In this document: one piece after another, positions 14,942-60,965 of the stretch
Numbering within the stretch: position 1 is the stretch's first letter
How the letters are laid out: every line of letters starts with the position of its first letter
Assembly: GCF_014199525.1 (NCBI RefSeq)
Contig: NZ_JACHNU010000001.1
Coordinates: forward strand, 1,528,182-1,592,181
Direction of reading: 5' to 3'
Length of the DNA: 64,000 nucleotides
Origin: Conexibacter arvalis
Lineage (GTDB): Bacteria; Actinomycetota; Thermoleophilia; Solirubrobacterales; Solirubrobacteraceae
The notes under the pieces: model-generated
The model's database searches: none
The model's input: only the letters and a program-made list of their open reading frames with translations
What the model was told of the DNA's origin: nothing
Program-made: the position numbers and the translations under genes

Positions 14942-15050
14942 GGAGGGCCGCGCCGGGCCGCGCGCTGAGCTGCGTCGATCTGCACTCCTCAGAGGGGTAC
15001 GGACCGACGCAGGTCGCGGCGCGGCGCCGCGTGAACGCGTCATTGGCAGT

Positions 15051-24170: not shown

Positions 24171-24223
24171 GGGACCTTTGTCATCCAATGCCTGCTCAGC
24201 ATGCACTGGATGACAAAGGTCCC
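24171..24223. repeat. Long hairpin element (type A)
   Basis: GGGACCTTTGTCATCCA and TGGATGACAAAGGTCCC are perfect 17-bp arms around a 19-base centre that can pair further (ATGC with GCAT). It lies between the divergent phosphoketolase and P-type ATPase genes, so it is not a terminator of either. A close relative is found at 46051-46103. Confidence 0.85.
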
Positions 24224-24325: not shown

Positions 24326-27196
<2,871 letters not shown>

Positions 27197-46050: not shown

Positions 46051-46103
46051 CGGACCTCTGTCATCCAGCTGTTGCTCACCAACAGCTCGATGACAGAGGT
46101 CCG
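46051..46103. repeat. Long hairpin element (type A, second copy)
   Basis: CGGACCTCTGTCATC and GATGACAGAGGTCCG are perfect 15-bp outer arms. An inner 8-bp stem (AGCTGTTG with CAACAGCT) closes a 5-base loop after one mismatch. It shares the GGACCT-TGTCATCCA core with the hairpin at 24171-24223. It lies between the DUF1801 gene and the SixA-like gene, both on the plus strand. Confidence 0.85.
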
Positions 46104-57053: not shown

Positions 57054-59066
57054 GTGAGCGCCACCGACCCGCAGCCGACGTCCGTCGCCACCGCGGTCGG
57101 CGCGGCGCTCGCCGCCGCCGGCGTGCGGGTCGTCTTCGGGGTGCTCGGCAGCGGCAACCTCGTCGCGACCAACGCGCTGGTCGACGGCGGGGCCCGCTTC
57201 GTCGCCGCCCGCCACGAGGGCGGCGCCGCGACGATGGCCGACGGCTACGCGCGCGTCAGCGGCGAGGTCGGCGTCGTCTCGGTCCACCAGGGACCGGGCC
57301 TGACGAACGCAATGACAGGGATCGCCGAGGCGGTCAAGAGCCGCACGCCGCTGCTCGTCCTCGCCGCCGACACCCCGGCCGCCGCGCTCACCTCCAACTT
57401 CCGCATCGACCAGGGCGGGATGGTCGCGGCCGTCGGCGCGGTCGCCGAGCGCGTCCATGGCCCGGCGGCCGCGGTCGCCGACGCCCTCCGCGCGCTGGGC
57501 CGCGCCGCCGCCGAGCGCCGCCCGGTCGTCCTCAACCTCCCCCTCGACGTCCAGGCCGCCCCGCTGCCCGAGCCCCCACCCGCCCCCGCGGGGAGGAGTG
57601 GCGTTCTGGGGGGCCATATCACCCCCAGAACGCCACTGGTCGGCGCGGGCGCGAGCGGCGCGGCACTGGTGGGCGGGAGCGGCTCGGCGCGGGCGGGCGC
57701 GAGGGGCGCGGCGCGGGCGGTGGCCGGGGCGGCCGCGCGCGGGGCGGCGCCGGTCGCGGTGCCGTCGGCCGACGCGGTCGCGCGGGCGGCGGCGCTGCTG
57801 GCGGGTGCGGAGCGGCCGGTCGTCGTCGCCGGGCGCGGCGCGGTGCTGGCCGACGCGGGCCCGGCGCTGCAGGCGCTCGCCGAGCGGGCCGGCGCGCTGC
57901 TGGCGACCTCGGCGCCGGCGAACGGGCTGTTCGCGGGCGATCCGTTCGCGCTCGGGATCGCGGGCGGCTTCGCCTCGCCGCTGGCGCAGGAGCTGCTGCC
58001 GCAGTGCGACCTCGTGCTCGCGGTCGGCGCGACGCTCAACCACTGGACGACCCGTCACGGCACCCTCTTCGGCGACGCGCCGGTCGTCCAGGTCGACGTC
58101 GATCCGGCTGCCGGCCAAGAGCCCCACGGCCCCCGCGCGCTCGTCCTCCCCGGCGACGCCCGCGCCACCGCCGAGCTGCTCGCCGCGGCGCTCCCGCACG
58201 CGGAGCCGCCTGCGCCGCGCGTGGCCGCGCCCACCCCGGCCGCGCACGCCGAGCCGCCCGGGTCCGCGCCGCCCGTGCACGCCGCACCGTCCTCCTCGCC
58301 CGCGCCCGCGCCGCCCGCCGGCCCCGCCACCGGCTGGCGCACGCCGGAGACCGCCGCGCTGATCGCCTCGCGCCGCTGGCGCGACGAGCCGGCGGAGACC
58401 GCGATCGCGGCCGAGGCGACCGCCGTCGCGCGGGCGGCCCGCGACGCCGCGCTCGCGACCACCGGGGGCGGCGCCGCGCTCGATCCCGGCCCCTTCGCCG
58501 ACCCGGCCGCGCTCACGAAGCGGCTCGACGAGCTGCTCCCGGCCGACCGCGTCGTCGCCGTCGACTCCGGGCACTTCCTCGGCTGGCCGGCGATGTTCCT
58601 CGGCGTCGCGGAGGCGCGCGCGTGGGTCTTCCCGAACGGCTTCCAGGCGGTCGGCCTCGGCCTCGGCTGCGCGATCGGCGCGGCGCTCGCGCGGCCGGAG
58701 CGCGTCACGGTCGCCGCGCTCGGCGACGGCGGCTGCTTCATGGCGCTGCCGGAGCTGGAGACGGCCGCCCGCCTGCGCCTCAAGCTGCTGGTCGTCGTCT
58801 ACGACGACGCCGCGTACGGCGCCGAGGTCCACCACTTCGGGCCGTCCGGCCACGCGGTCGCGGGTGCGCAGTTCCCGGCTGCCGACCTCGCCGCGCTCGG
58901 CCGTGCCGCCGGGGCCGAGGCGGTCACGGTCCGCGACGCCGCCGACCTCGTCGCCGTCGAGCGGTGGCTCGCCGCCGGCGCCGACGGCCCGCTCGTCGTC
59001 GACGCGAAGGTCGACCCGACGCTCTGCGCCGCCTGGCTCGAGGACGCCTTCAAGGGCGGCGGATGA
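57054..59066 (+). CDS. ThDP-dependent enzyme, acetolactate synthase/benzoylformate decarboxylase-like
   Basis: The 670-residue enzyme has the three-domain ThDP architecture. It has the catalytic glutamate E55 in RHEGGAATMADGYAR, the HQGPGLTNAMTGIAEA block, and a central domain. The C-terminal cofactor motif GDGGCFMALPELETAARL is followed by VYDDAAYG; here the usual Asn pair after the GDG motif is Asp-Asp. Two low-complexity linkers (about 180-240 and 385-430) make it longer than the usual 550 residues; the first contains the hairpin at 57597-57637. The substrate is unknown; clustering with a cyclase-family hydrolase suggests a 2-oxo acid from aromatic catabolism. Confidence 0.87.
   Translation: MSATDPQPTSVATAVGAALAAAGVRVVFGVLGSGNLVATNALVDGGARFVAARHEGGAATMADGYARVSGEVGVVSVHQGPGLTNAMTGIAEAVKSRTPLLVLAADTPAAALTSNFRIDQGGMVAAVGAVAERVHGPAAAVADALRALGRAAAERRPVVLNLPLDVQAAPLPEPPPAPAGRSGVLGGHITPRTPLVGAGASGAALVGGSGSARAGARGAARAVAGAAARGAAPVAVPSADAVARAAALLAGAERPVVVAGRGAVLADAGPALQALAERAGALLATSAPANGLFAGDPFALGIAGGFASPLAQELLPQCDLVLAVGATLNHWTTRHGTLFGDAPVVQVDVDPAAGQEPHGPRALVLPGDARATAELLAAALPHAEPPAPRVAAPTPAAHAEPPGSAPPVHAAPSSSPAPAPPAGPATGWRTPETAALIASRRWRDEPAETAIAAEATAVARAARDAALATTGGGAALDPGPFADPAALTKRLDELLPADRVVAVDSGHFLGWPAMFLGVAEARAWVFPNGFQAVGLGLGCAIGAALARPERVTVAALGDGGCFMALPELETAARLRLKLLVVVYDDAAYGAEVHHFGPSGHAVAGAQFPAADLAALGRAAGAEAVTVRDAADLVAVERWLAAGADGPLVVDAKVDPTLCAAWLEDAFKGGG
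57597..57637. repeat. Perfect hairpin inside a coding sequence
   Basis: AGTGGCGTTCTGGGGG and CCCCCAGAACGCCACT are perfect 16-bp arms around a 9-base loop (GCCATATCA). It lies in the first variable linker of the ThDP enzyme and is read in frame as SGVLGGHITPRTPL. Such a palindrome in a gene suggests insertion of a small mobile or repeat-type element. Confidence 0.85.
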
Positions 59067-60916: not shown

Positions 60917-60965
60917 GAGCATTGGCTTTCCGCACGTGCTGAGCACGTGCGGAAAGCCAATGCTC
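60917..60965. terminator. 49-base near-perfect palindrome, hairpin after the glycosyltransferase-like gene
   Basis: Bases 60917-60940 and 60942-60965 are exact reverse complements (24 bp each, one central base). The arms start GAGCATTGGCTTTCC. It lies 6 bases after the stop of the upstream gene and just before the ECF promoter. It may end transcription, but no T tract follows, and its length and perfection are unusual for a terminator. Confidence 0.55.

Follow-up and report, generated by a model that had tools for sequence, protein, structure and literature searches.

The genome of Conexibacter arvalis carries a superfamily of palindromes of one fixed length, 49 nt, whose members have been copied to new places and are associated with genes for AbiEi–DUF559 proteins, a different palindrome subfamily lying at the 5' end of each gene in a fixed position and reading phase. 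Two long hairpins, described preliminarily within the window (the whole stretch of 64,000 nt that was analysed), would be solitary copies of this 49-bp element. On the evidence set out below, we lean towards the reading that the palindromes are REP-like elements that are bound, and perhaps spread, by their cognate AbiEi–DUF559 nucleases.

The preliminary description placed the two hairpins at 24171..24223 and 46051..46103, and both are present there, with the GGACCTYTGTCATC arms, the equal length and the inner stem that it had claimed they share. Their folding energies are −38.6 and −41.2 kcal/mol, respectively (z −8.8 and −11.2), and none of 200 shuffles was as stable as either hairpin. The first, with a 49-nt core at 24173-24221, lies in a divergent gap, as had also been said, flanked by a minus-strand gene for a phosphoketolase (XFP) and by a gene called on the plus strand at 24326; by our own gene caller the second (core 46053-46101) lies in a codirectional gap, with a DUF1801 gene on one side and a histidine-phosphatase gene on the other, each on the plus strand. 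A search for the 14-nt arm with up to one mismatch returned 61 matches in the genome (5.2 Mb, 18 contigs, 99% complete), and 56 of these make 28 pairs with a spacing of exactly 37 nt. The arrangement arm–23 nt–arm, with up to three mismatches, was found at 30 places in the genome and at none in a reversed-pattern control, which sets the two hairpins beyond chance. With a degenerate 31st copy (L034:3815), this subfamily, F1, comprises 31 copies of a single length.

The preliminary description had raised the prospect that these two copies might be the only ones and that nearby species might lack them; F1 alone has 31 copies, and the superfamily occurs in congeners with other arms, the F1 arms themselves being absent there. 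Across 60 other genomes, the F1 arm–23 nt–arm arrangement gave a single match with three mismatches (G041), which was taken as chance, and no exact F1 arm pair was found in viral contigs. A search for the exact arm pair at variable spacing in 84,980 species, a set that possibly omits this genome and very near ones, returned one match, in a Lachnospiraceae; it spans 64 nt and was likewise set aside as chance.

When up to 1.2 Mb of the genome was scanned for palindromes without bias, others of this size and layout came to light that have different arms, and 33 members of the superfamily could be aligned without gaps over 49 columns. Over the whole genome the covariance model gave at least 143 matches on both strands, at no fewer than 72 places (150 candidates scored). 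Distinct places number 87 in the 1.4 Mb examined of 5.2 Mb, part of this DNA (about 50 loci) having been chosen for holding palindromes. In that count, five weak and mostly GC-rich places were excluded (L227:95, L097:4043, L104:2724, L171:15461 and L046:1767), two weak F1 copies were retained (L108:12112 and L034:3815), and window:14967 and L239:1549, which are one place, were counted once. A matrix scan produced 47 hits, 45 of them above the best shuffled score, and these are not independent evidence of the superfamily because 32 of the 40 training sequences lay inside the scanned DNA. By their arms, the 87 places were assigned to F1 (30), F3 (17), F2 (12), F7 (8), F5 (7), F4 (6), F8 (3) and others (4).

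Five members fall in the window (14967-15015, 24173-24221, 46053-46101, 57593-57641 and 60917-60965), the next best match there scoring 23 bits. Beside the two F1 copies, there is an F7 palindrome at 14967..15015 (47 bits), in a convergent gap 25 nt past the stop of a plus-strand gene, and an F2 palindrome at 60917..60965 (62.9 bits), a perfect 49-nt hairpin that begins 6 nt past a stop codon and upstream of a gene for a sigma-70-like factor. The fifth, an F3 palindrome at 57593..57641 (51 bits), is in frame and open within a coding gene, in the linker of a TPP-dependent enzyme encoded at 57054..59066 on the plus strand.

Some unusual members were seen elsewhere in the genome. Two F4-like palindromes stand in tandem about 50 nt apart (C2:101632 and ~C2:101708), the second being even-centred, as though carrying an indel, and a palindrome at C2:669604-669652 has F4-like outer arms around an F3-like centre, which suggests an exchange of modules between subfamilies. 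The first 100 nt of contigs C1 and C2 open with an identical short hairpin-bearing sequence, perhaps a repeat that broke the assembly.

The core at 24173-24221 is identical over 49 nt, reversed, to a palindrome on contig C6 (L051:2992-3040), and their flanks are alike at 20/50 and 14/50 positions; identity across the whole element between unrelated flanks means that this palindrome was copied. Three F7 copies are also identical, and one exact-copy pair of this subfamily (C2:660630/L228) is alike in 13 of 15 nt on the left as well, which the other F7 pairs are not. In the congener G004, the two genes that surround the 46053 site are separated by 26 nt with no palindrome between them. The 60917 palindrome has no counterpart behind the left gene in G003, nor ahead of the right gene in G004. 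In the linker of the TPP-dependent enzyme, G003 has a palindrome with other letters and G004 a weak match (20.9 bits), and the model gave no match in the region of G005 that corresponds to the 57593 linker. Four further slots are common to C. arvalis and G003 (L044/L209, L051/L212, C2:476684 and C2:499342), where the paired palindromes agree at 19 to 32 of 49 positions, and C. arvalis has nothing that corresponds to three of the G003 palindromes (L202, L203 and L213). Among 11 C. arvalis slots with flanks that were located in G003 blocks, three are shared. On this comparison of sequences, slots that are shared while their letters have changed would mean either that palindromes were replaced in place or that they diverged fast.

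At E ≤ 0.001, the model matched 26 of 121 genomes, namely C. arvalis itself, five of six congeners, 16 others of the family and four of the order; many of the family and order genomes have one or two matches, and single matches at E 1e-4 to 1e-3 may be chance. The five congeners gave at least 6, 26, 36, 20 and 14 matches, and G005 gave none. Those palindromes of relatives that were examined have the same 49-nt layout with arms of their own. An unbiased scan of a 200-kb stretch of G003 and two short pieces of other congeners found no superfamily palindrome; absence from G003 had been inferred from that stretch and was dropped, the covariance model having matched elsewhere in that genome. The G003 matches listed span about 1.3 to 5.3 Mb of a 6.36-Mb chromosome, with none in the first 1.3 Mb, and their distribution may be uneven.

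A genome-wide search found seven DUF559 genes in C. arvalis. Every one of them carries a superfamily palindrome at its 5' end, offset by 0 or −6 nt relative to where the profile starts, and the reading phase is the same throughout; an offset of 0 follows by construction in these seven, though not in relatives, because the profile was built from frames that start at the palindrome. Four of the seven have a second palindrome at the stop codon. Each gene has a subfamily of its own, which for L261-L267 are, in order, F3, F5, F6, F2, F8, F1 and F7, and the F1 gene (~G000:C2:476840-477667) lies outside the window. For 77 of the 87 places, the arms allow assignment to a subfamily that one of these genes carries. 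Subfamily F6 has a gene and lacks a solitary copy in the 87-place set, and a search of the genome found no DUF559 gene for F4.

Nine pairs of palindromes lie within 3 kb of each other. Two of them (F1/F1 and F3/F3, some 955 nt apart) have a DUF559 gene between them, six have other called genes and one has none. One of the six, an F1 palindrome and a degenerate palindrome at a distance of about 800 nt, encloses a pair of MazE-like and PIN-like genes (L034:3011-3863; C1, ~907.7-908.6 kb).

In relatives, a palindrome was found within 18 nt of the expected place at 20 of 48 DUF559 genes (28 being without), split as 11 of 13 congener genes and 9 of 35 genes from other genera. The model located 17 of the 20 at −3 to +9 nt and the palindrome scan three more, and all 20 offsets are multiples of 3. 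Taken alone, the palindrome scan found 13 of the 48; for comparison, among genes at large the centre of a palindrome falls no more than 20 nt from the called start in 3 of 478 cases in G003 and 3 of 1068 in C. arvalis. The 48 genes comprise 29 search loci outside C. arvalis and 20 that were hand-picked, less one duplicate (L313 = L283); two of the hand-picked genes (G004:C22 and G006:C31) were on contigs with a nearby palindrome among the model matches listed, and one partial match (L297) had its start extended by hand to full length. Of 21 palindromes at start sites, 10 have ATG as their central triplet, and in L275 an in-frame stop lies ahead of the central triplet, so that translation must begin at that triplet or beyond it. 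A phylum-wide sample gave a 5' palindrome at 5 of 24 scored genes in a wide window with a laxer threshold, and at none within 18 nt, so the tight arrangement has been demonstrated in the genus and in some related genera, and not phylum-wide. One DUF559 gene of the same phylum (L328, in G136) is bounded on both sides by perfect palindromes of 48 nt with an even centre; they differ from each other by one letter, and their geometry is unlike that of the 49-nt family. Distances between proteins and between their palindromes are weakly correlated (Mantel r 0.25, p 0.013, n 18), with r 0.35 and p 0.07 for the seven C. arvalis genes.

All seven proteins match the AbiEi_4 and DUF559 (PF04480) profiles above the cut-off, the latter still being named as of unknown function in Pfam. 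The MTES_1575 nuclease profile also matches all seven, above the cut-off in three, PADLOC AbiEi profiles extend over the N-terminal half in each of the three proteins tested, and the Vsr profile gives a weak match below its cut-off. Residues E245-x-D247, E258-x-D260, H265, D274 and K277 of the nuclease domain are invariant in all seven, and these acidic, His and Lys residues are presumably catalytic. The nearest solved sequences are 3hrl, which is endonuclease-like (E 9.8e-6), and 3r3p, a mobile intron protein (E 5.2e-5) that we take to be I-Bth0305I. These matches point to homology of the domain with EDxHD/Vsr-like nucleases. Searched with the nuclease alignment, viral contigs yielded 26 pattern matches, none from a relative of the protein, and plasmids gave a single weak AbiEi match.

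In the reading that we lean towards, each subfamily would be paired with one AbiEi–DUF559 gene, the frame of which begins at a copy of the palindrome and sometimes ends at a second. The AbiEi-type winged-helix region, to judge from its homologues, would bind both arms of the palindrome that belongs to it, in duplex form, and the Vsr/EDxHD-like domain would nick or cut at or near such palindromes. Repair or strand transfer would then copy the palindrome to new places or over existing palindromes. A nuclease with dozens of sites in its own genome would need restraint, which counts against this reading; with its palindrome lying across the start codon, the protein could hold down its own production, and this may explain why the host tolerates it. 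Also counting against it are F4, for which no gene was found, the lack of solitary F6 copies among the 87 places, the 28 genes of relatives with no palindrome at the expected place, the phylum-wide sample, the weak correlation of protein and palindrome distances, and the left-flank likeness of the F7 pair C2:660630/L228. A bolder form of the same proposal, which we put forward tentatively and rate as less likely than not, is that the AbiEi region, fused to a homing-type (EDxHD/Vsr-like) nuclease, copies its own palindrome, in part by overwriting those of other subfamilies at slots already occupied, so that several pairs compete on one chromosome, and that this is a second, independent REP-like system.

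The preliminary description had taken the difference between CTTTG/CAAAG and CTCTG/CAGAG in the two hairpins as a compensatory change that implied selection on the folded form. In the 31 F1 copies, this position varies independently in the two arms, with Watson–Crick pairing in 15 and 12.8 expected (p 0.24; CG 9, TA 6, TG 6, CC 3, CA 3, GG 2, GA 1 and TC 1), and the cited pair is no evidence of folding. Covariation was also absent from the five other outer F1 pairs that vary on both sides. The inner pairs 17, 18, 19 and 22 are paired in 29, 31, 31 and 28 of the 31 copies, in each case more than expected, with weaker signals at pairs 20 and 21. Since the outer arms vary without covarying while the inner stem covaries, the outer arms appear to be kept by sequence, as expected of duplex half-sites read by a DNA-binding protein, and the inner stem either by pairing or by shared descent of a few inner types. 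Recognition of the outer arms as duplex does not by itself account for the covariation of the inner stem, and this weighs against the explanation that we favour. Between subfamilies (alignment A1), all 22 pairs are changed on both sides and 90.2% are paired, with a covariation score of 0.795 vs 0.207 when shuffled; this count is partly circular, as most rows had been selected for being palindromes, and paired changes would arise with no folding at all if a symmetric dimer read the duplex, so A1 is not taken to prove folding.

The likeliest alternative is that the protein merely binds and the copying has another cause. The palindromes would be autoregulatory sites of the AbiEi-like region, and the solitary copies a regulon or decoys that were spread otherwise, an explanation that we judge unlikely while allowing it some weight. 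It draws on the repression by AbiEi of its own promoter through a 49-bp inverted repeat, as described in part of PMC3985639, and on the position of the palindromes over gene starts, with ATG as the central triplet in 10 of 21. Against it, as assessed with a codon-based gene caller made for this analysis, the 87 places comprise 31 in convergent gaps, 32 in codirectional gaps, 12 in divergent gaps, 10 inside called genes and 2 at locus ends, and no promoter is expected in convergent gaps, which hold 31 of the 75 intergenic copies (159 of 838 background gaps are convergent). Further points against it are that one copy lies inside a conserved enzyme gene, that a second palindrome sits at the stop in four of the seven DUF559 genes, and that copies move.

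The enrichment in convergent gaps would suit hairpins that act in transcripts, as terminators, stabilisers or small RNAs, and so would the distance to the facing stop codon, which is 29 nt or less in 55 of 96 cases (one duplicate place included), and the covariation of the F1 inner stem. We nevertheless consider this explanation improbable. Twelve copies lie in divergent gaps and ten within called genes, the arms are tied to nuclease genes, and a U-tract is not evident after the copies in the window. G.U and A.C pairs on the transcribed strand number 23 and 23 in the 32 codirectional copies, and 30 and 33 in the 31 convergent ones. An RNA hairpin under selection on the coding strand should give more G.U than A.C, and the 21 start-site palindromes show the opposite (A.C 23, G.U 7), the numbers being small. 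With no such G.U excess and no Rfam match in the window, the earlier suggestion of a family of small structured RNAs finds no footing.

That description had also proposed a REP-like or transposase-mobilised element. The part of this proposal that concerns a mobilised, REP-like element is borne out by the dispersed copies, the identical copies with unrelated flanks, the empty sites in congeners and the repeat-bounded gene. The part that looked to a RAYT-type transposase is not, for a search of the C. arvalis genome (99% complete) for RAYT/Y1 (PF01797) gave no match at E ≤ 0.001 (one candidate scored), and the genes bounded by palindromes are DUF559 genes. That a RAYT (Y1) transposase moves these palindromes, as in classical REP systems, is thus very improbable, even though dispersed palindromes, subfamilies and a repeat-flanked gene make up the layout given for RAYT genes in sections of PMC2817692. 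Least credible of all are MITEs of a DDE insertion sequence with the arms as terminal repeats, since, for all that inverted arms do enclose a more variable centre, the edges of the 87 copies have no excess of 5–9 nt direct repeats, the 2-nt and 4-nt repeat signals are weak (p 0.004 to 0.04, uncorrected, 24 tests), and two single-arm matches outside palindromes are at about chance level by a hand estimate.

REP palindromes are widespread bacterial repeats, and the RAYT transposase is, to our knowledge, the one enzyme so far tied to them. A second protein family matched to palindromes subfamily by subfamily would, if the explanation that we favour is true, give DUF559 a concrete substrate and join AbiEi operators, homing-type nucleases and REP elements. 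Each protein should then bind, and perhaps cut, its own 49-bp palindrome in preference to those of its paralogues, and REP classes with no known transposase, such as the CGTC REPs, would be worth re-examining. Caulobacter is among the bacteria with CGTC REPs, and its genome contains a DUF559 match.

Literature that joins DUF559 or AbiEi–nuclease genes with dispersed palindromes was not found in open-licence PMC, a collection that mostly excludes subscription journals and bioRxiv. Rickettsial palindromic elements (RPE) are palindromes that lie in frame within genes, a likeness to the genic copies here, in a different lineage. Two RPE classes are equated with CGTC-tagged REPs in a passage of PMC3733652, where the latter, a large class of REPs, are described as dispersed, also inside genes, and as being without a dedicated transposase. 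The C. arvalis palindromes resemble CGTC REPs in their dispersal and genic copies and differ from them in that the CGTC REPs, in the same passage, have stems of 8–9 bp, a CGTC tag and often form dimers.

The REP/RAYT system, as portrayed in portions of PMC2817692 and PMC8266576, consists of short dispersed palindromes in subfamilies, with the gene for the enzyme flanked by its own repeats. Here too there are dispersed palindromes in subfamilies. The gene beside which they lie (7/7 at the 5' end, 4/7 at both ends) encodes a different enzyme, AbiEi–DUF559, with no Y1 match in the genome, the palindromes are longer (49 nt, fixed), and an unpaired tag of the GTAG type is not apparent in the aligned F1 flanks. 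As no Y1 transposase was found, the system is not classed as REP/RAYT, although its layout is REPtron-like and it would work like one.

Among nucleases, I-Bth0305I is described in part of PMC3943268 as dimerising on a target of nearly 60 bp, and the DUF559 of Caulobacter VsrA as Vsr-like in part of PMC12907096. The proteins studied here are like the EDxHD/Vsr-like nucleases in their profile match to 3r3p and differ in full-length architecture and in their palindromic sites. The AbiEi of Streptococcus agalactiae, a winged-helix protein of the type IV toxin–antitoxin system AbiE, binds, according to part of PMC3985639, an inverted repeat of the form 11-N27-11, or 23-N3-23, which amounts to 49 bp and is situated where its own gene starts. 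An inverted repeat of about 49 bp likewise starts the AbiEi-type gene in 7/7 cases here, with the differences that AbiEi is fused to a nuclease domain and that the palindrome is dispersed genome-wide. This agreement at 49 bp is, by analogy, the best hint that the palindrome may be read as two duplex half-sites at a fixed spacing.
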